Assembly (NCBI GenBank): GCA_919901855.1 | Contig: CAKKQC010000028.1 | Coordinates: forward strand, 1 to 64,000 | From: a bacterium | Lineage (GTDB): Bacteria; Oederibacteriota; CAKKQC01 | Direction of reading: 5' to 3' | Length of the DNA stretch: 64,000 bases | In this document: positions 1 to 32,031 of the stretch, one piece after another | How positions within the stretch are numbered: the stretch's first letter is position 1 | How the letters are laid out: every line of letters begins with the position of its first letter | Program-made: the position numbers and the translations under genes | Notes under the pieces: generated by a model | What the model was told of the DNA's origin: nothing | Databases searched by the model: none | Seen by the model: only the letters and a program-made list of their open reading frames with translations

Positions 1-369
1 GGGTGGCTGATGTTGATCGGGTTCAACCTGGCACTCAACCACCTGAGGGGGGTCCGCCGCCGGCACGAACAGCCGCTCGAGGGGCCGGACGATCAGGTGC
101 CCGACTGGATGGTCGACACGGCTTCGCTGGGACCCGAAGCGAGGGCGGAGATGTCCGAGGAGATGGCGCTGTACCGGTCCCTGCTCGGACAGCTCTCGGA
201 GGAACAGCAGGAGGTGGTGCGCATGGTGCACGAGACGGGGATGGAGATCCGGGACGTGGCGGAGGAGCTCGAGATCGCGCCGGGAACGGTCAAGTCGCGG
301 CTTCATTACGCGAGGCAGCGCCTCGCCAAGGACTGGAAGGACATTTCGGGAGAAGGAGGCGACCGATGA
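1..369 (+). CDS. ECF-type RNA polymerase sigma factor, C-terminal part (5' end outside window)
   Basis: The reading frame is open at the left edge, so only the last 122 residues are seen. The first residues (GWLMLIGFNLALNHLRG) match the end of sigma region 2, where a W-L-x-x-I-x-x-N-x-x-x-D/N-x-x-R pattern is usual. Residues about 55-115 are a sigma-70 region 4 helix-turn-helix (LSEEQQEVVRMV, then IRDVAEELEIAPGTVKSRLHYARQRL). The stop codon overlaps the start of the fused RNA polymerase gene by 4 bp (ATGA), so the two are translationally coupled. That makes this a candidate dedicated initiation factor for the miniature polymerase, which is an inference. The family is certain; the promoter and regions 1-2 are not visible. 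Confidence 0.85.
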   Translation, partial: GWLMLIGFNLALNHLRGVRRRHEQPLEGPDDQVPDWMVDTASLGPEARAEMSEEMALYRSLLGQLSEEQQEVVRMVHETGMEIRDVAEELEIAPGTVKSRLHYARQRLAKDWKDISGEGGDR

Positions 370-3300
370 CGCACCCCTGGTACACGGCCCCGTGGCACCG
401 CGAATCCTACGACCGGTTCGTGGAGGCCGGGCTCCCGGAGCTCATCTCCTCCCGTCTGCCCCTCCAGGCCTGGAGTGTCGCCCCGGCGACCGGGCGCGTG
501 CGGCGAGTGTCGCTCACTATTGGCAACGGTGGCGGGATCGGCCACCTCGAGGCGGACCTCCCCGAGCCGGATGCGGACGGCATCTTCGAGATCGGCGGAC
601 GGCGGTTCGTCGTCGTGCCCGTGGCGTCCACCGAGCACCTGGAACGCGCCGAGATCCGGTGCGTGGGCGAGCAGTTCCGGGACTTCCTCGAGCCGCGACT
701 GGGGGAGGCGCCTCCCGGGATGAACTGGGACGACGCCGCGGTGCGGACGTGGCTGCCGTTCGAGGCCTGGATGCGCGACTTCTTCGGCCTGGGCGCCGGG
801 CCCGGGGTCCGGGTCAACGTGCTCGACGACACGAACTGGCTCGCCCGGGCCGAGCATCTGCGCCGGATCGTGATCCCGGACCGGGTGAAGGTGATCACCG
901 GGTCCCAAGTCGGGCGCACGGACCCCTTCTCGACGCCCGAAGGGCCCAACATCGGCAAGATGCTGTCGGTGGCCCGGGGCGCCACGATCCGGGACGGCCG
1001 GATCGTGGTCGTGGACGACGCGCCGGCGGCGGGGCTGTCCGTGACGTCGTCCATGATCCCGCTCGTCGAACACGACGACCCGAACCGGACGCTCATGGGG
1101 GCCAACATGACGCGCCAGTGGCTCGTGCTCCCCGACCCCGAGCCCGCGCTCGTCCGGACGGGGTCCGAGCCCGACGTGGACCGGTTCTGGTGCGGCCGGA
1201 ACCTGCTCACGGCCTATGTCTCCTGGGGCCTCGATACGTTCGAGGACGCGATCGTGATCAGCGAGTCGGGCGCGCGGAAGCTCTTCACCGACGCGGCCAT
1301 CGAGCCGGGGGACAAGCTGTCGAACCGGCACGGGGGCAAGGGCGTCATCAGCCGGATCCTGCCCGACGACGAGATGCCGCATCTCGCCGACGGCACGCCG
1401 GTGGAGCTCGTCTACAGCTTCCTCGGACTCCAGACCCGGATGAACTTCGGCCAGGTCCGCGAGTCCGTGCTCGGCCGGATTGCGAAAGCCGAGGGGAAGC
1501 CGGTCGTGGCGCCGGCGTTCGCGGGACCGAAGGCCCGCGAGATCAAGGGGCGGCTCAAGGCGGCGGGCCTGCCCGAGTCGGGGATGGAAGTGCTGACGAT
1601 GGGGAAGAACGGGCCCGCGCTCGCCCGGCCGAGCACGGCCGGCTGGGTGTACTGGGGTGTCACGCACCATCAGGTGCGCGGCAAGATCCACGCAACCACG
1701 GGCAAGGACCGGGCCCAACGGCAGGGAGACGAATCCATGATGCTGGCCTCCATGGGCGCCTTCGAGACGATTCTCGAGCACTTCAACACGTGCGCGTGCG
1801 AACGGAAGGGATCCGGGAGTCTGGCGGCGCAGGTGGCCAGGGGCCCGGTCGAGCAGGCCGAGCCGCCCACGCCGTCGTTCGCCGACCTCGAGCGCCGGCT
1901 CGCCGCCGCGGGAATCCGGGCGGCGTACGAGGGAGGCCGGGTCGGCTTCTCGCTGGCGGCGCCGCAGGGCACCCGGCTCACGCTCGCGTGCCCGGTCCGG
2001 CATCCGTGGCTCCATGACCGGGACCTGACCGAGGTCGGCGCGGTTCCGGATCTCGCCGAATACCGGGCGCTGGCCGAGGCCAACGCCCAGCTCGAGCGCG
2101 TCCTCGCGAGCCATGCGCCCGAGAGCCTGACGAGCCGTTCGCGTCAGAGCCTCGCCCGGTGCGTGCGGTCGCTCTTCGGGGAGCTGGTCACGCCCGACCA
2201 CGTCCGGCTCAACGCGAGCACGGCGTTCTCGGGCCGGAGCGTGATCGCGCCCGGCCGGGACCTCCAGCCGGACCAGTTGGGGCTTCCCGACGAGATCGCG
2301 TGGACGCTGTTCGGGCCCGCCGTTACCCGCGATCTGGGGCAGGCGGACGAGGTCGCGAACCGGACGGAGAAGGCCGCGGCCAAGCTCGACGAGGTCATGG
2401 CCGGATCCTGGGTCGTCCTCGAACGGGCCCCCGCGGTGATGCCGACCGCGTTCCTCGCGTTCCATCCCGTCCGCGTCCCGGGCCGCGCGATCCGGGTGCA
2501 TCCCCTGATCTGCATGGCGATCAACGGCGATTTCGACGGGGACATGGTCGCGGTCTTCCTGCCGCTGACGGAGGCGGGACAGCGGGAGGCCGGGGAAGTC
2601 CTGTCGATCGCCGGCCACGTGCGCCGGGACCCCGCGCTCCTGCAATGGTTCCGGCCCGTGCAGGAGATGGTGTGGGGGCTCGCCGACCTCGGGCGGACGC
2701 CCGGCGGGAAGGACAAGATCGACGCGGCGGCCGGCATTCCGGTGCCCGTGGCGGCCGGGCTCGTCACCCGCGACACGATCCTCGAAGCCCTGCGCGGCGT
2801 GCTGGCCCGGGACGGGATCGGGAAGACGCTCGAGGCCATGGACCGGCTCATGCGGCTCGGGTTCGAGGCGACGAAGGCGTCGGGGGCCTCCATCAATCCG
2901 TTCCTCGGGTCGAGCCTGCCTCCGCTCGCCGAGCCCGAGACGACCGACCCCGTGGAGTGGATGCGGTATGGCGACGAGATCATGGAGCGGCTGGCGTCGT
3001 TGACGGCGTACGACGATCCCGATCTCGGGCCCCAGCTCCTGGCGGTCCGGACCGGCGCCCGGGGCAACATGCGCCAGCTCCACCGGCTGACCGGTCCGTG
3101 CGTCCTCGAGGACTACGACGGCCAGCTCGTGATCGTCCGGAGCACGTTCCGGGACGGGTACACGGGGCCGGACATGTTCATCACCGTCCGTGGCGCCCGG
3201 GAGGGGCTCGCGAAAGTCGTCAACGACTTCGACCTCATGCGCGCAGCATACGGCGTGCGGAAGCCCTCCCCGCCGGGCGGGTTCAACGTCTTCGCCCGGG

Positions 3301-3410
3301 CGATCCGCGCCGCCGAGCCCGGCCTCGTCTTCGCCCGCGCCGCCGCGAACGGCGAGTCCGACCCCCTCACCGACCCCGACGCCCGGCTCTTCGTGGGACT
3401 GAAACCCTAG
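366..3410 (+). CDS. Miniature single-chain RNA polymerase: fused beta and beta-prime cores
   Basis: A 1014-residue protein carrying, in order, motifs of both large RNA polymerase subunits. Beta part (to about residue 480): STPEGPNIG (189-197), EHDDPNRTLMGANM (235-248), FEDAIVIS (E293-D294) and GDKLSNRHGGKG with both conserved lysines (K317, K325). Beta-prime part: a clamp coiled coil (about 560-612), AFSGRSV (620-626), the catalytic NGDFDGD loop with three aspartates (720-726), a bridge helix TGARGNMRQL (896-905) and GAREGL (943-948). Bacterial beta plus beta-prime is about 2750 residues. Missing here are the flap (20 residues lie between FED and GDK), the beta-prime N-terminal zinc ribbon, the trigger loop, the jaw and the beta-prime C-terminus. 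The ATG at 366 overlaps the sigma stop. The catalytic residues suggest an active polymerase; template and promoter specificity are unknown. Confidence 0.93.
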   Translation: MTHPWYTAPWHRESYDRFVEAGLPELISSRLPLQAWSVAPATGRVRRVSLTIGNGGGIGHLEADLPEPDADGIFEIGGRRFVVVPVASTEHLERAEIRCVGEQFRDFLEPRLGEAPPGMNWDDAAVRTWLPFEAWMRDFFGLGAGPGVRVNVLDDTNWLARAEHLRRIVIPDRVKVITGSQVGRTDPFSTPEGPNIGKMLSVARGATIRDGRIVVVDDAPAAGLSVTSSMIPLVEHDDPNRTLMGANMTRQWLVLPDPEPALVRTGSEPDVDRFWCGRNLLTAYVSWGLDTFEDAIVISESGARKLFTDAAIEPGDKLSNRHGGKGVISRILPDDEMPHLADGTPVELVYSFLGLQTRMNFGQVRESVLGRIAKAEGKPVVAPAFAGPKAREIKGRLKAAGLPESGMEVLTMGKNGPALARPSTAGWVYWGVTHHQVRGKIHATTGKDRAQRQGDESMMLASMGAFETILEHFNTCACERKGSGSLAAQVARGPVEQAEPPTPSFADLERRLAAAGIRAAYEGGRVGFSLAAPQGTRLTLACPVRHPWLHDRDLTEVGAVPDLAEYRALAEANAQLERVLASHAPESLTSRSRQSLARCVRSLFGELVTPDHVRLNASTAFSGRSVIAPGRDLQPDQLGLPDEIAWTLFGPAVTRDLGQADEVANRTEKAAAKLDEVMAGSWVVLERAPAVMPTAFLAFHPVRVPGRAIRVHPLICMAINGDFDGDMVAVFLPLTEAGQREAGEVLSIAGHVRRDPALLQWFRPVQEMVWGLADLGRTPGGKDKIDAAAGIPVPVAAGLVTRDTILEALRGVLARDGIGKTLEAMDRLMRLGFEATKASGASINPFLGSSLPPLAEPETTDPVEWMRYGDEIMERLASLTAYDDPDLGPQLLAVRTGARGNMRQLHRLTGPCVLEDYDGQLVIVRSTFRDGYTGPDMFITVRGAREGLAKVVNDFDLMRAAYGVRKPSPPGGFNVFARAIRAAEPGLVFARAAANGESDPLTDPDARLFVGLKP

Positions 3411-3411
3411 C

Positions 3412-4719
3412 TCAGGGGGTTTCCGCCAGGGCCTTCTCGATCTCGGCGATCCCGCGCCGCTCGAGGGCCAGGAGGGTTCTCAATACGTTCGCATGCGCGT
3501 GCCGCATCGCGGGCGTCCATTTCTTTGCGTTGTCCAGGTCCCATGGGAACATGTTCCAGGGCTCCCGAAGATCCTCCCGCTTGGTCTCCATGACCGTCAC
3601 CATTTCCGTGTAGATGCCCTTGGCTCTTGAGAGCGATGCGGCTCTCTCGCCGCTGGTTGCCTTGGCGGCGGCGCCCAGGAACCGGACCGCGGACTTGCGC
3701 GCCGAATCGAGGCAGTTGTACGCGTATCCGCTGGACAGGCAGGCTCCCACGAAGGCGTTCTCGGGCATTCCAGCGAAGCGCTGGTCCTGCTCGAGCTGTT
3801 CGATCCAGAGCTCGTAGGCGCGGAACCCGCTGGCGAACTCGCCGAACGACGGTGTCTTTGCCAGCATGACCGCCCGATCCAGGGCGGATTCGAGAAGCGT
3901 CTCCCGGTCCTGGCTCACCCGCTTCTCCAGGATTCCGGCGACGGCCCAGGGCCACTCTCCGACGGGCGCGTAGCCGACGTTGCCTTCCTGAAGCTTGAAC
4001 CCGTGATGGCGCCTGTAGAGGGAACCGTCCTTTCGGGAATACCCCACGACGACACTGCATTCCTCCTCGTTGAAGAGCACGGGGTATCCCCGGTCGATGC
4101 TTTCCCTGGCGGCCTGGAGCAGTCGCTTCCGCTCTTCCTCGTTACCGGCGTTCGCGGCCACCCAGGTGAAGCGGTACCCCATGGCGTCCGCGGCGGCCAC
4201 GACGCAGTCGAATCCCACCGCCGAGTTCGTCTCCTCCGGATGCCACTCCGGCTGTTTCAGCAGGAGCCGGAAGGAAGAGCCCGACATGGCCATGACGTAG
4301 TCGTAGTTGATGTCCTTCTCTCCAAGCGCCTGGAAGACGGCGGTCAGCGCTCCGATGCACGTATCCTGCTGTTCGCCGTAGCCGCCCCACCAGGCTTTCT
4401 CGAGCCCGGGGATGAGCACCACGTCGTTCTCCACGGTCGGCTTCGATGCCACGCCCGGCGCATCCTTGGACAGGCCGAGGACATGCCGCTTGAGCTCGTT
4501 CCAGTCCGTGAACCCGTAGTCCCTGGCCATGGCGAACTGGACGTCGGCCAAGGAAACATGGGCTCCGAGGATCGCCTCGTCGGGCGAATGGGCGAACCGG
4601 GGGATACTGCGGAGCACCTCGCACACACTAGCGTCACCCTTCCTGTGGTTGCGGAGGAGCGTCTTGGCCTGCTTACGGAGGTTCTCGAAGTTCGGTGCGG
4701 AAGGCAACGGTTTAGCCAC
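3412..4719 (-). CDS. BtrH/C39-like domain protein with N-terminal LPxxPxxExLRKQAK helical module
   Basis: 435 residues. The start is a GTG preceded at 5 nt by a perfect AGGAGG. Residues 1-80 form a module (LPSAPNFENLRKQAKTLLR ... MARDYGFTDWNELKRHV) that in other bacteria often precedes ankyrin-like or unrelated domains; the PilM-type gene at 40877 begins with the same module. Residues about 95-290 (LEKAWWGGYGEQQDTCIGALTAVF, then FDCVVAAADAMGYRF) resemble BtrH_N / papain-like C39 domains, with Cys in the N-terminal helix. The C-terminal 150 residues are helical and unassigned. By eye the codon use is less GC-rich than in neighbours. Peptidase or acyltransferase activity cannot be decided from sequence. 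The gene lies 171 bp downstream of the sigma-HEAT gene on the same strand. Confidence 0.7.
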   Translation of the reverse strand: MAKPLPSAPNFENLRKQAKTLLRNHRKGDASVCEVLRSIPRFAHSPDEAILGAHVSLADVQFAMARDYGFTDWNELKRHVLGLSKDAPGVASKPTVENDVVLIPGLEKAWWGGYGEQQDTCIGALTAVFQALGEKDINYDYVMAMSGSSFRLLLKQPEWHPEETNSAVGFDCVVAAADAMGYRFTWVAANAGNEEERKRLLQAARESIDRGYPVLFNEEECSVVVGYSRKDGSLYRRHHGFKLQEGNVGYAPVGEWPWAVAGILEKRVSQDRETLLESALDRAVMLAKTPSFGEFASGFRAYELWIEQLEQDQRFAGMPENAFVGACLSSGYAYNCLDSARKSAVRFLGAAAKATSGERAASLSRAKGIYTEMVTVMETKREDLREPWNMFPWDLDNAKKWTPAMRHAHANVLRTLLALERRGIAEIEKALAETP

Positions 4720-4890: not shown

Positions 4891-6114
4891 CTACTTGGGG
4901 GGTTTCCCACCGCTGATGATGGCGCCGCTGGAATCGAGATGGCATCCGCATTCCGCGCATCTTCCCTTCACCGACAACGCAGCCACGTGGCGGATCTTGT
5001 GCTTCTCGTCCTTGGCCGCGCGCTGGAAGGCTGCGTCCACGCGTACATCCTTCAGCCGGGCATATGGCCTGAGGGCCAGGACGCACACCCAGCGGTTCTT
5101 CACAATCGGGTCCTTGAGACACGCGATCAGGCTTTCTATGCCGTCCGGCACCTTCTCTGCCCAGGTCCGGAACTGGTTGGATATGCTGTTTTCGAAGTCG
5201 TACCCCTCCGAGTGACCGAGAAGCGAGGCGTAGCTCCTGATCGCGCCCCTACGGACGACCACATTTTCGTCTTCGAGAAGCTTGGCCAAATGCTCACGGC
5301 CCCGTTGGTCGCGGGATAGACCGAAGTGCAGCGCTGCCTTCGCCCTGACCTTGGCATGTGGCGAGCGTGAGAGCTCCACCGCCATCCGGAATCCCTCTTC
5401 CCCAGAGCGCAGAAGCTCGGACACTTTGGCCACTACTTGGCGGTGCCATACCGATCTCATCTGGTCATGCGCGGGGCCGTTCATCGCATAGACCCGAATT
5501 GCATCTGCGATCCGGTGGGAGAAGCCGGGGTCTGGCGCCATGCCTCGCACCTCGTGCTCCACCAGCGTCATCAGGTGCTCCTTGAGTCTGCCTCGGGCCG
5601 AATGCAGGCGGCTCTTTACCGTGGATGTGGGAAGGCCCAGAAACTCCGCAATCTCGGCATGTGGCCGATCCTCCATGTAGAACATGAACGTGACCACCCG
5701 TTCCCCTTTGGGCAGGCTGTCGATGGCGTCCGATACCGCCTTTCTTACTTCCATTTCCTCCGCCCTTTCCGCCGGCCCCGGCGATGTCGATGCGATTACG
5801 CTGTCATCGTCTATCGGCACCACCTGCAGCTTCTTTCTCCGCATCCTGCGATCGCAATGCTTGAAGATGATCTTCCGAAGCCAGGCCGGAAAGGCGCCCA
5901 GGTTGCGCAAGGCGCCCAGCTTGAAGTACGCCTCGACGAACGCTTCCTGAGCCACATCCTGCGCCAAGTGGAAGTCCCTCAGGACACCGGCTCCATAGGC
6001 TATGGCCATTCGTTGAAATCGCCGCACGATTTCCTCGTATGCAGCCGCATCCCCGCCCCGCGCGGCGATCAGCAGGCCGTCGAGATCCTTGCCCATACCG
6101 CCATTCTCGCTCAT
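4891..6114 (-). CDS. ECF sigma factor fused to HEAT-like repeats and a Cys-rich tail
   Basis: About 407 residues from the ATG at 6114 (an alternative ATG lies at 6096). Sigma region 2 (DLDGLLIAARGGDAAAYEEI, then LAQDVAQEAFVEAYFKLGALRN) and region 4 (LPKGERVVTFMFYME, then HAEIAEFLGLPTSTVKSRLHSARGRL) occupy residues 1-190. They are followed by about 180 residues of helical HEAT-like repeats (VRAKAALHFGLSRDQRGREH, VVRRGAIRSYASLLG, NRWVCVLALRPYARL, KIRHVAALSV). The end, RCAECGCHLDSSGAI, has three closely spaced Cys and may bind metal. Known ECF sigmas with C-terminal extensions use them as built-in sensors or anti-sigma-like controls; that role here is inferred. The start lies 8 nt beyond the tRNA-like gene, so no room is left for a Shine-Dalgarno at 6114. 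Confidence 0.82.
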   Translation of the reverse strand: MSENGGMGKDLDGLLIAARGGDAAAYEEIVRRFQRMAIAYGAGVLRDFHLAQDVAQEAFVEAYFKLGALRNLGAFPAWLRKIIFKHCDRRMRRKKLQVVPIDDDSVIASTSPGPAERAEEMEVRKAVSDAIDSLPKGERVVTFMFYMEDRPHAEIAEFLGLPTSTVKSRLHSARGRLKEHLMTLVEHEVRGMAPDPGFSHRIADAIRVYAMNGPAHDQMRSVWHRQVVAKVSELLRSGEEGFRMAVELSRSPHAKVRAKAALHFGLSRDQRGREHLAKLLEDENVVVRRGAIRSYASLLGHSEGYDFENSISNQFRTWAEKVPDGIESLIACLKDPIVKNRWVCVLALRPYARLKDVRVDAAFQRAAKDEKHKIRHVAALSVKGRCAECGCHLDSSGAIISGGKPPK

Positions 6115-6121
6115 GACGCGG

Positions 6122-6196
6122 TGGGTGGTGCTGGAATGGAACCAGCCTCCTCGTCGCGCCAAGCGCGCCGCCGCTCTACCACTGAGCTAACCACCC
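6122..6196 (-). tRNA. tRNA-like gene, isotype undetermined, irregular anticodon arm
   Basis: On the minus strand the acceptor stem GGGTGGT/ACCACCC pairs fully. The D arm (GCTC-AGTGGTA-GAGC) and T arm (GCTGG-TTCCATT-CCAGC) are perfect, and the discriminator is A. CCA is not encoded (CCG follows). The 26 nt between the D and T stems are GC-rich and about 3 nt longer than in a standard class I tRNA. No 5-bp stem with a 7-nt loop and U33 can be drawn; the only Ts are in CTTGG, and CGCG-CTTGG-CGCG gives a 5-nt loop. It may be a degenerate tRNA, a tRNA with an insertion, or a sequence error. Confidence 0.6.
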
Positions 6197-28985: not shown

Positions 28986-29648
28986 ATGATCTTCTTCGAT
29001 CTGGATGGCACGCTCCTGGACGACGATGCCGAGGTGCAGGCGGCCGTCGCGAGGTTCCACGACCGGTTCCGCCAGGAGCTTCCCGCGGACCCGGCCGCGT
29101 TCCTCGTCAGGTGGAGGGAATTGTCGGAATGCTGGTTCAACCGGTATCTCAAGGGCGAGGTCGGGTTTCAGGGGCAGCGGCGAGGGCGGATGCGCGAGCT
29201 GTTCCCGGAGCTCGACGACGAGGAGGCGGACCGCCGGTACTCGGTCTTCCTGGCGGGGTACGAGCAGAACTGGCGGCTCTTCCCGGACGTCCAGCCGGCG
29301 CTGGCAGCGCTTGCCGGAAAGCCGTTGGGGATCATCACGAACGGGGATTCGGTCCAGCAGCGCTCGAAGCTCGACCGGATGGGGATCGCGGACCGGTTCT
29401 CCGTCGTCATCATCTCGGGGGAGATGGGAGTTGCCAAGCCCGAACCCGGAATCTTCGCGGAGGCGTGCCGCCGGGCCGGGGAGGCGCCGGGACTCTGCTG
29501 GTACGTGGGCGACCGTCTCGAGACCGATGCGATGGCCGCGGTGGCGGCCGGGATGCGCGGCGTCTGGCTTAACCGGGATCCGGCCCGCCCCGCCGATCCG
29601 CGCGTCCCCACGATCCGGACGCTGGCGGAGGTCCCCGCTCTCGTCTGA
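28986..29648 (+). CDS. HAD superfamily hydrolase
   Basis: 220 residues from the ATG at 28986. Motif I is MIFFDLDGTLLDDDAEV, motif II LGIITNGDSVQQRSKLDRMG, motif III GVAKPEPGIF and motif IV WYVGDRLETDAMAAVAAGM. It is similar to phosphoglycolate- or YjjG-type nucleotidases with a C1 helical cap. It lies 10 bp after the GNAT gene and probably shares its transcript. Confidence 0.92.
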   Translation: MIFFDLDGTLLDDDAEVQAAVARFHDRFRQELPADPAAFLVRWRELSECWFNRYLKGEVGFQGQRRGRMRELFPELDDEEADRRYSVFLAGYEQNWRLFPDVQPALAALAGKPLGIITNGDSVQQRSKLDRMGIADRFSVVIISGEMGVAKPEPGIFAEACRRAGEAPGLCWYVGDRLETDAMAAVAAGMRGVWLNRDPARPADPRVPTIRTLAEVPALV

Positions 29649-29753
29649 CGGCTGGCGCAGGCGCTGTTCGGGTTGGGCGGGGGTATCTTGGCCGGCAAGA
29701 TTGTCAGGCCCTGTAAGCAGAAGAGCCGGCAATCCAAGCCGGACTCCAATCGT

Positions 29754-29759
29754 TAGGCT
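29754..29759 (+). promoter_or_regulatory. Possible -10 element TAGGCT before norZ
   Basis: TAGGCT ends 11 nt before the ATG of a six-codon mini-ORF and 28 nt before norZ. No FNR-like or NnrR-like palindrome was recognised nearby. Confidence 0.25.
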
Positions 29760-29770
29760 GGAAGACATTT

Positions 29771-29791
29771 ATGACCATGGAGGCACCATGA
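29771..29791 (+). CDS. Putative six-residue leader peptide before norZ
   Basis: ATG-ACC-ATG-GAG-GCA-CCA-TGA. The stop overlaps the norZ start (ATGA at 29788-29791), and the norZ Shine-Dalgarno GGAGG lies within it. The layout matches two other coupled mini-ORFs in this window. It may be incidental. Confidence 0.25.
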   Translation: MTMEAP

Positions 29792-32031
29792 CGAATCCGC
29801 GGGTCCGGGTACTGTTGCTGCTCATGCTCGCCGCCTGTTTCGGCATCCTGCTCATCGGCGGACGGATGATCCACCGGGACAAGCCGCCCATCCCTGAGTC
29901 CGTGGTGACGGGCAAGCGGCAGGTGGTCTTCACCGGTGCCGACGTCATGGCCGGGCAGCAGCACTACTTCAGCCGGGGCGGTCAGCACATCGGGTCGATC
30001 TGGGGACACGGGTCGTACCTCGCGCCGGACTGGTCCGCGGACTGCCTCCACCGGACGGGGCTCTACGTCGCGGCGAGGAAGCTGGGGAAGAACCCCGCCC
30101 AGGCCCGCGCCTTCGCGCAGGCGGACCTCGACGCGCTGGATCCCGTCGTGCGCGCGACCGTCGAGGCGAAGGTCGTCGCCGAGCTCAAGCCGAACCGGTA
30201 CGACGCCGTGACGGGGGTCCTGACATTCACGCCGCTCCAGGCCGAGGCGTTCAAGGCGCTCGTGCCGTACTACACCGGGCTCTTCCGGGACGGCAACGAC
30301 CGGATGGGTCTCCAGGCGGGCATCGTCAAAGACGAGGCCGAGGGCCGCGCCATGACGAGCTTCTTCGCGTGGCTGGCGTGGGCGGCGGTCACCAACCGGC
30401 CCGGCCAAGCCGTGACCTACACGAGCAACTGGCCGTTCGACCCGCTCGTCGGGAACGGCCCGCTCCCGGGCACGTTGATCTGGTCGATCGCGAGCGTCAT
30501 CCTGCTCATCCTGGCCGTCGGCCTCGTGATCTTCTTCTATATGAGGTACATCCGCGAGGACTCGTACGAGGCCAAGCCGGTGGCGGCGCTGGCGGAGCCC
30601 GCTCCCACCCCGAGCCAGAAGGTCACGCTCGCGTTCTTCTCCGTCGCGATGGCCCTCTTCGCCCTCCAGGCCGTACTCGGGTCCGGCGTCGGCCACTTCG
30701 TAGTCGAGGGCACCCGGTTCGCGGGGTTCCCGATCGCGCACTACCTGCCGTACGCGGCCCTGCGGACCTGGCACCTCCAGCTCGCGATCTTCTGGATCGC
30801 GACCTGCTTCGTGGCGGCGGGCCTCTTCGTCGGACCCTGGATCTGCACCGAGCCGCGCGCCCAGGCGCCGTGGGCGATCTTCGTCCTCGTCGCGGTCGCG
30901 ATCGTGATCGTGGGGACGCTCGTGGGCACCTGGGCTTCGGTGCAGGGCCTCATGGGGAACGCGTGGTTCCCGTTCGGCCACCAGGGATATGAGTATCTCG
31001 AGCTCGGCCGCGTCTGGCAGATCCTGCTGGCCGCCGGTCTCGCGGTCTGGCTCGTCCTCGTCTACCGCGCCATCCGGCCCGCGCTCGAGGGGGAGGCGGA
31101 CCGCGGCGGGATCATTCACCTCCTCCTGTACAGCTCCGTGAGCATCCCGCTGTTCTACGTCCCCGCGCTTTTCTACTGGCGCGGCGCGCATATCTCGGAC
31201 GCGGAATACTGGCGCTGGTGGGTCGTCCACCTCTGGGTCGAGGGGTTCTTCGAGGTATTCGCCACGGTCCTGATGGCGTTCTTCCTCTCGCGGCTCGGGG
31301 TCATCACCGAGAAGTTCGGGCTGCTGACCATCTACCTCTCGGTCTTCCTGTACCTGGGCGCCGGCGTCGTCGGCACGTTCCACCATCTCTACTGGACCGG
31401 GACCCCGGTGCCGATCATGGCGCTGGGCGCGATGTTCTCCGCACTCGAGATCGTGCCGCTCACGATCCTGGGGTTCGAGGCCGCGATCAACGTGCGCGCG
31501 ATCGCGGGGGGCGGTCAGGCCTGGCCGTTCCGGTGGCCGGTCGCGTTCTTCATCGCGGTCGCGTTCTGGAACATGGTCGGAGCCGGCGTCTTTGGGTTCC
31601 TGATCAACCCGCCGATCGTCCTCTACTACATCCAGGGCACGAACACGACGCCCCTGCACGCGCACACGGCGCTCTACGGCGTGTACGGCACGTTCGCGAT
31701 CGCGCTCATGCTGTTCTCGATGCGGCACATCGTGCCGCTCCACGCGTGGTCCGACCGTCTGCTCAAGTGGGCGTTCTGGTGCCTGAACGGCGGCCTGGTC
31801 GCGATGACGCTCTTCAGCCTGCTCCCCGCGGGTTTCTACCAGTTCTACTACGCCGTGAAGTACGGCATGTGGTACGCGCGGAGCCCCGAGGTCACGTCCG
31901 GGCCCGTCCTGCGCGCGCTCGGTTACGCCCGGATCGTGCCCGACCTCGTGTTCTGGGCCGGCGCGATCCTGATCCTGGCGTTCACCGTGCGCGCCACGGC
32001 GCTGACCTTCCTGAAGCGGAAGGCGTCGTAG
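29788..32031 (+). CDS. norZ: Quinol-dependent nitric oxide reductase (qNOR)
   Basis: 747 residues, the usual qNOR length, with an N-terminal membrane anchor, a periplasmic domain (about 35-225) and a NorB-like 12-14-helix core. Ligands are in place: H329 in RTWHLQLAIFW (heme), H481 and E485 in VVHLWVEGFFEVF, H532-H533 in TFHHLYWTGTP (non-heme iron) and H624/H626 in PLHAHTALYGVYG. It reduces two NO to N2O with electrons from quinol at the inner membrane. All iron ligands fit a reductase, not an NO dismutase. It stands alone, without other denitrification genes, suggesting NO detoxification or partial denitrification. Confidence 0.97.
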   Translation: MTNPRVRVLLLLMLAACFGILLIGGRMIHRDKPPIPESVVTGKRQVVFTGADVMAGQQHYFSRGGQHIGSIWGHGSYLAPDWSADCLHRTGLYVAARKLGKNPAQARAFAQADLDALDPVVRATVEAKVVAELKPNRYDAVTGVLTFTPLQAEAFKALVPYYTGLFRDGNDRMGLQAGIVKDEAEGRAMTSFFAWLAWAAVTNRPGQAVTYTSNWPFDPLVGNGPLPGTLIWSIASVILLILAVGLVIFFYMRYIREDSYEAKPVAALAEPAPTPSQKVTLAFFSVAMALFALQAVLGSGVGHFVVEGTRFAGFPIAHYLPYAALRTWHLQLAIFWIATCFVAAGLFVGPWICTEPRAQAPWAIFVLVAVAIVIVGTLVGTWASVQGLMGNAWFPFGHQGYEYLELGRVWQILLAAGLAVWLVLVYRAIRPALEGEADRGGIIHLLLYSSVSIPLFYVPALFYWRGAHISDAEYWRWWVVHLWVEGFFEVFATVLMAFFLSRLGVITEKFGLLTIYLSVFLYLGAGVVGTFHHLYWTGTPVPIMALGAMFSALEIVPLTILGFEAAINVRAIAGGGQAWPFRWPVAFFIAVAFWNMVGAGVFGFLINPPIVLYYIQGTNTTPLHAHTALYGVYGTFAIALMLFSMRHIVPLHAWSDRLLKWAFWCLNGGLVAMTLFSLLPAGFYQFYYAVKYGMWYARSPEVTSGPVLRALGYARIVPDLVFWAGAILILAFTVRATALTFLKRKAS

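Follow-up and report, generated by a model that had tools for sequence, protein, structure and literature searches.

How little of a cellular RNA polymerase could a sigma factor still direct to a promoter? The question is raised by a 64,000-nucleotide stretch of bacterial DNA (hereafter the window), the leftmost part of contig C28 (181,597 bp) in a genome of 4.68 Mb that is 93% complete. A preliminary description, made from the letters of the window alone, had pointed to a miniature single-chain RNA polymerase that carries both the beta and the beta-prime catalytic cores and lies beside its own sigma gene. The two genes concerned are:

1 to 369, forward strand: gene of an extracytoplasmic function (ECF) sigma factor, its 5′ part cut by the contig edge; recognized by Sigma70_r4_2 in the visible part and by upstream orthologs
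366 to 3410, forward strand: P0001, the single-chain miniature RNA polymerase gene (1014 aa; ATG at 366, stop codon ending at 3410); recognized by Pfam and by homologs

Our analysis confirmed that the polymerase locus is a genuine gene and not a chance reading frame, a pseudogene or a chimera, since ten independent full-length homologs exist. Together, the ECF sigma gene and the mini-polymerase gene are a conserved two-gene cassette in two phyla. The reading that we favor, and to which we give an even chance, is that the cassette encodes a minimal RNA polymerase that is programmed by the sigma, works slowly and serves a tiny regulon of a mainly autoregulatory kind. That it forms a chromosomal orthogonal transcription system, in which a dedicated ECF sigma and a ~110-kDa chain derived from beta and beta-prime serve a private promoter, seems to us slightly short of an even chance.

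Both catalytic barrels lie in one short chain

Pfam reported beta and beta-prime domains in the single open reading frame (ORF) of P0001: Rpb2_3 at residues 152-207 (E 4e-6), RNA_pol_Rpb2_6 at residues 311-444 (E 5e-34) and Rpb1_2 at residues 672-747 (E 3e-16), in agreement with the preliminary description. A sequence search of the PDB returned canonical beta and beta-prime chains only, among the 60 matches listed. Canonical full-length rpoB and rpoC, whose presence elsewhere in the genome had been raised as a point to check, were both found on contig C19 with open frames of 1328 and 1417 aa; P0001 is therefore an additional enzyme, and its 1014 residues come to about one-third of their combined size, as had been estimated. 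It is one chain rather than separate full-length beta and beta-prime, and it scored far under the NCBIfam cut-offs for rpoB and rpoC. Pfam and NCBIfam found RNA polymerase domains only, with no known anti-sigma domain in P0001, and PADLOC, which gave no match at the locus, does not support any known defence system.

AlphaFold2 (AF2) models were built with the sequences of the window and of the DNA searches as input, the homologs from whole-genome searches being left out. The first and second models had a mean predicted local distance difference test score (pLDDT) of 61 and 65.5 and a predicted template modelling score (pTM) of 0.59 and 0.62, respectively, and both barrel regions exceeded a pLDDT of 80 in most blocks. 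VIA-align superposed the beta part on RPB2 (Z 27.8, 3.2 Å over 278 residues; for the second model, Z 27.6, 1.8 Å over 221 residues), and Foldseek assigned the beta-prime part to beta-prime chains with E ~1e-20. By Pfam, VIA-align and Foldseek, both double-psi beta barrel (DPBB) domains that define the two-barrel superfamily are thus found in one chain. The preliminary description had looked to a predicted structure for two juxtaposed barrels; two confident barrel regions that match RNA polymerase chains are there, while their mutual placement is predicted with moderate confidence (pTM 0.62).

A sigma gene and a promoter-like element accompany every full-length copy

The ATG of the polymerase gene overlaps the sigma stop codon (ATGA, 366-369). 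Contig C54 supplies, at its right end, the remaining 262 nt of the sigma gene with the start codon, as well as its putative promoter: window bases 1-55 are identical to the final 55 bases of C54, with a full match nowhere else, and the joined frame encodes a complete 191-aa ECF sigma with Sigma70_r2 and Sigma70_r4_2. An ECF sigma gene is found directly upstream and on the same strand in 10/10 full-length homologs, so that the adjacency first noticed in the window holds for every full-length copy; nine homolog sigmas that were aligned are 45-51% identical to that of the window.

The sequence TGAACNTT-N12-GGTGTC is found upstream of all 11 sigma genes, that of the window's genome included, and most copies read TGAACTTTT-N11-GCGGTGTCATTTACAGT. 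The architecture TGAAC-N15-GGTGTC, with identical 15-nt spacing, precedes 11/11 of them. The element looks like an ECF −35/−10 promoter, and its placement suggests autoregulation of the cassette. Written as TGAACNTTN12GGTGTC, it has a single exact copy in the window's genome, before the sigma gene, which fits the private regulon that the preliminary description had proposed. An exact genome-wide search reported one site each in the window's genome (G000), G360, G397-G401 and G403, always at the cassette, and a reversed-motif control gave two matches in 22 genomes. When up to 2 mismatches were allowed, no further shared site was recognized, the downstream genes not being inspected systematically. 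The sigma gene adjacent in all full-length copies and the common promoter-like element define the conserved two-gene cassette. Neighboring genes are common only to close relatives (within genus g345, and between G395 and G396), which marks the cassette itself as the conserved unit.

A second copy of the element was observed in two genomes of family f265, G395 (L134, C27) and G396 (L135:2390, C1), before tandem permease genes, the first of which matches ABC2_membrane_2 (ABC-2-type).

The barrels are kept and the elongation parts are lost

To delimit the parts of the chain we used an hhalign profile alignment of P0001 against 14 RpoB and 10 RpoC sequences, in which residues 87-526 aligned to RpoB (100%) and residues 542-961 to RpoC (99.9%). 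The following parts, all on the forward strand, were recognized:

393 to 620: putative remnant of the beta N-terminus, residues 10-85, HRESYDRFV... DGIFEIGGRRFVVVP; weak hhalign match to RpoB 58-183 (probability 24%)
819 to 986: beta fork and rifampicin-pocket segment with STPEGPNIG, residues 152-207; Pfam Rpb2_3 and hhalign to RpoB
1194 to 1700: beta double-psi barrel and the next hybrid-binding part, residues 277-445 (FEDAIVIS, GDKLSNRHGGKG, RMNFGQ); Pfam Rpb2_6, hhalign and VIA-align
2052 to 2186: beta-prime clamp coiled coil, residues 563-607; nearly gapless hhalign alignment to RpoC, helical hairpin in the second model
2217 to 2615: beta-prime double-psi barrel, residues 618-750; Pfam Rpb1_2, hhalign to RpoC (99.9%), Foldseek (E 1e-20)
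2529 to 2543: catalytic aspartate triad DFDGD (D722, D724, D726); D724 and D726 invariant, D722 in 10/11 homologs
3024 to 3098: F-loop-like segment TGARGNMRQL; hhalign to the canonical GARG segment that precedes the bridge helix, not family-conserved
3153 to 3251: bridge-helix remnant from GAREGL onward, without the canonical center KTADAGYLTR; alignment to canonical sequences
3321 to 3398: family-specific C-terminal motif VFARAAANGESDPLTDPDARLFVG, possibly the beta-prime C-terminus; conserved in all 11

All the motifs listed in the preliminary description are present, but two of its labels were wrong: TGARGNMRQL, taken there for the bridge helix, corresponds to the F-loop, and the bridge helix starts at GAREGL. 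The near-canonical core claimed there holds for the barrels and not beyond them. Missing from the minis are the flap, the beta-prime zinc region, the rudder and lid, the bridge-helix center, the trigger loop and the jaw, and little is left of the beta N-terminus and lobe. The flap is deleted between FED and GDK (the missing block is RpoB 852-952 of the same genome), and the trigger loop and jaw ahead of the C-terminal motif, whose register fits RpoC 1340-1364, although this match is not significant. No counterparts of the invariant blocks KTADAGYLTR and RSVLTCESRGG...TLRTFHVGG were found in P0001. Despite the loss of most of the clamp, the clamp coiled coil, the usual docking site for sigma region 2, is retained; in the second model it appears as a helical hairpin (563-581/586-607) with a block pLDDT of ~72-81 over residues 561-600.

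Of the aligned positions that are invariant in canonical sequences, 48/149 in beta and 37/196 in beta-prime carry the same residue in every one of the 11 minis, and these cluster in the two barrels. E293, D294, K325, R624, D724 and D726 are invariant across the minis at ~50% identity, the window protein carries D722, D724 and D726 as well as both beta lysines, K317 and K325, and every catalytic position that we examined is kept in 8/11 copies. The homolog of G360 (L060:8373-11489) has NANFDGD instead of NADFDGD and LMN instead of RMN, and is probably a natural copy without catalysis, although its ORF, sigma gene and promoter-like element appear intact.

The family is confined to two phyla in our sample

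Homologs were sought in a genome collection that holds about half of the GTDB species and was sampled only in part. Among 384 genomes sampled around that of the window, one other full-length homolog was found, in G360, from another phylum. Homologs were present in 11/84 genomes of the second phylum (8/9 of family f248, 2/2 of f265, and one truncated copy in f181), ten of them full-length and 45-52% identical to P0001. In the window's own phylum no homolog was found among the 44 other genomes sampled, and a further 386-genome sample searched with the family profile added none. Automatic 8-mer searches of genome contigs and viral contigs found nothing; a search for the pattern GDKxxxRHGGKG matched phage single chains and those of metagenome-assembled genomes (MAGs), with no close relative, and tblastn against phages and plasmids brought up nothing but canonical or phage subunits, all of which covered less than 80% of the query. 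In G404 a 55-aa C-terminal piece, 93% identical, lies beside bioD (L288:9476-9640), i.e., the rest has been deleted.

In a maximum-likelihood tree built on 397 core columns the minis form one clade (100%), with G000 as sister to all second-phylum minis. Separate from this clade are the canonical RpoBC of the two phyla (100%), the phage single chains and the single chain of a Deltaproteobacteria MAG. Origin from either host's own rpoBC was considered and is not supported, as the minis form a separate clade. The long-branch sequence L049 appears as sister to the minis, a position that may be an attraction artefact.

Comparison with known polymerases

Most known polymerases with two barrels in a single chain come from phages, and to our knowledge all that have been described function without a bacterial sigma. 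Like cellular RpoB and RpoC, the mini-polymerase has near-identical catalytic motifs, the clamp coiled coil and a sigma partner gene, but it is one 1014-aa chain and falls outside the canonical clade. The full-length beta-beta′ fusions (NCBIfam PRK14844 and PRK09603) also join both subunits in one chain, yet their models span 2839-2890 positions and P0001 reaches 192 and 160 bits where the cut-offs are 4632 and 5372.

YonO of Bacillus phage SPbeta also has its two barrels in a single chain of ~100 kDa and, although no trigger loop is detectable in it, is an efficient, processive polymerase (PMC5467207). It is a prophage late-gene enzyme, whereas the mini-polymerase gene is chromosomal and next to a sigma gene. 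YonO (839 aa) did not match P0001 significantly: a two-sequence hidden Markov model (HMM) search gave E 0.19, hhalign a probability of 0.2%, blastp was nonsignificant, and SPbeta was absent among the matches listed at E up to 10. The preliminary view that P0001 is closer in sequence to cellular beta and beta-prime than YonO is was borne out by these sequence and profile comparisons. The proteins gp64 and gp96 of Thermus phage P23-45 resemble P0001 in being single-chain two-barrel polymerases with DFDGD or a similar metal motif, and enzymes of this type are reported to retain the bridge helix and an N-terminal trigger loop (PMC10770324); gp64 (616 aa) against P0001 was nonsignificant (hhalign probability 0.6%).

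Besides canonical RpoB, the next best homologs by profile are single chains of phages (L023-L047) and MAGs (L049-L051), in which both subunits are fused and many of which carry GDKxxNRHGGKG and DFDGD. They differ from the minis in their size (~1900-2300 aa for most of the complete ones), in having more domains and in forming separate clades. L023-L047 (IMG/VR) are uncultivated phage single-chain beta-beta′ polymerases, most of the complete ones being ~2000-2300 aa long, with GDKxxxRHGGKG and xDFDGD. The MAG "bacterium isolate COS4_bin_33" (JAPOYM010000071.1) encodes a very divergent 1895-aa single-chain beta-beta′ (L049:1534-7219, forward strand) that bears the trigger-loop-like motif MKTFHGGG. 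Secondary single-chain beta-beta′ polymerases were also seen in the Deltaproteobacteria MAGs HGW-Deltaproteobacteria-15 and Zod_Metabat.1176 (L051:21-5424, forward strand, and L050, reverse strand); the L051 frame runs for 1801 aa from the contig edge, with the zinc domain and trigger loop present.

A literature search did not find a description of the mini-polymerase family, though the survey of Iyer and Aravind (2012), outside the coverage of the search, may mention relatives; the sigma/mini-polymerase cassette has apparently been undescribed so far.

A sigma-programmed polymerase or a sigma trap

We infer the pairing of sigma and polymerase, the use of the promoter and catalysis as follows. 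The ECF sigma would probably dock on the retained clamp coiled coil of the mini-polymerase, recognize TGAAC-N15-GGTGTC (extended −35 TGAACNTT) and direct the enzyme to initiate RNA at the promoter of the cassette itself; in one lineage it would do so before the pair of ABC-2 permease genes as well. A narrow, self-amplifying regulon apart from the host enzyme would result. Catalysis would be carried out by the two barrels together with the DxDxD metal site; slow or error-prone synthesis and short transcripts are expected, since the trigger loop is gone and the bridge helix broken. Activity is favored because the catalytic positions are kept in 8/11 copies at ~50% divergence. Purifying selection within g345, the sigma gene beside all ten full-length homologs, the element common to all 11 sigma genes and the retained coiled coil also speak for this reading, with YonO as a precedent for a polymerase in which no trigger loop is detected.

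Several observations weigh against this reading. Three of 11 homologs are altered at positions normally fixed in RNA polymerase: that of G360 has D722N and R358L, and those of G395 and G396 read GDA and GDT where GDK is expected, i.e., they are without K317. The trigger loop, bridge-helix center, rudder and lid, and zinc domain are all missing, which makes processivity doubtful. The beta flap, the usual dock for sigma region 4, is deleted, yet the sigma retains region 4, and the coiled-coil residues that we take to touch sigma in E. coli are not conserved here. Finally, the cassette is dispensable, given that G404, a complete genome of genus g345, keeps no more than 55 C-terminal residues of the polymerase.

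Anti-sigma genes usually lie directly downstream of the sigma gene and are often translationally coupled to it. The anti-sigma position of P0001, the retained sigma dock, the loss of elongation parts and the three altered active sites together make a sigma trap the strongest alternative: the sigma would use the host core at its own promoter, and the mini-protein, an anti-sigma factor derived from RNA polymerase, would bind it through the coiled coil in a self-limiting switch. We regard this as rather unlikely. The gene order and the ATGA overlap in the window match ECF sigma/anti-sigma operons, as does the autoregulatory-looking promoter, and no separate anti-sigma gene adjoins the cassette; the sigma region 2 site is retained whereas elongation parts are lost, and the apparent regulon is very narrow. 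A divergent beta-prime of Beggiatoaceae has been proposed as a negative regulator (PMC4679880). On the other hand, the downstream gene here is an RNA polymerase homolog that belongs to no known anti-sigma family, and a trap would need neither the metal site nor the beta lysine, yet 8/11 copies retain every catalytic position examined at ~50% divergence, and both barrels, not the coiled coil alone, are strongly constrained.

It is also conceivable, but to our minds clearly improbable, that P0001 is an active polymerase that makes, for instance, short RNAs, primers or copies of RNA templates while the sigma only drives its expression through the host core. Such an enzyme could keep the catalytic barrels and lose the trigger loop, the processivity elements and the flap, and the exact promoter-like element is confined to the cassette in most genomes; the sigma-polymerase pairing across two phyla and the kept docking coiled coil would then become coincidence. 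RNA templates, which the preliminary description had proposed, found no support. A functionless relic of a decaying phage or plasmid RNA polymerase is very improbable. Viral contigs commonly encode single-chain beta-beta′ polymerases, and two copies are remnant or truncated, that of G404 and that of G390, which starts abruptly at the GDK motif; but the ratio of nonsynonymous to synonymous substitution (dN/dS) is 0.13-0.17 within g345, indicating purifying selection, 11 genomes have full-length frames, promoter-like element and partner gene are conserved, and the tree sets the minis apart from the phage enzymes. We see almost no chance of an assembly or binning artefact, be it an rpoB-rpoC chimera or a contaminant contig. 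The window does begin at a contig edge, but ten other full-length copies have the same architecture, which disposes of the chimeric assembly that the preliminary description had considered. As to contamination, it was rejected on the housekeeping genes of C28: the citramalate synthase is 70% identical to that of a same-family genome versus ~54% to the other phylum, and the contig is therefore correctly binned. Third-position GC (GC3) of P0001 is 0.93, which fits a GC-rich genome, and any transfer is thus not recent.

If the sigma-programmed polymerase reading is true, the cassette would reveal how much of the cellular enzyme sigma-directed initiation can spare and would provide a natural test of catalysis without a trigger loop or an intact bridge helix; we know of no smaller enzyme of the cellular RNA polymerase type that is programmed by a sigma, and synthetic biology would gain a compact module for orthogonal transcription. 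The sigma-trap reading, should it prove right, would also bring something new, namely a regulator that evolved out of the polymerase.

Genomic neighborhood of the cassette

The mobile element suggested in the preliminary description was not borne out: ordinary chromosomal genes lie on both sides of the cassette, on a correctly binned contig, and a mobile element or prophage was rejected. The genes that precede the cassette on C54 look ordinary, with an MBL-fold protein and a GrpB-like one recognized by eye, and among those that follow it in the window are genes of an ABC transporter, a prolyl oligopeptidase, an aspartate kinase, a citramalate synthase and a nitric oxide reductase. No phage genes were seen among the chromosomal neighbors on C28 and C54, nor a separate anti-sigma gene beside the cassette.

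Three further genes of the window were noted. Convergent with the polymerase gene, their stops 1 bp apart, lies the gene of a 435-aa protein (3412-4719, reverse strand) without a match in Pfam, NCBIfam and PADLOC. A second ECF sigma gene (4891-6162, reverse strand) near the cassette has a product fused to C-terminal HEAT repeats. A 1008-aa frame (29005-32031, forward strand) with NorB cytochrome-c-like and COX1 domains encodes a quinol-type nitric oxide reductase.

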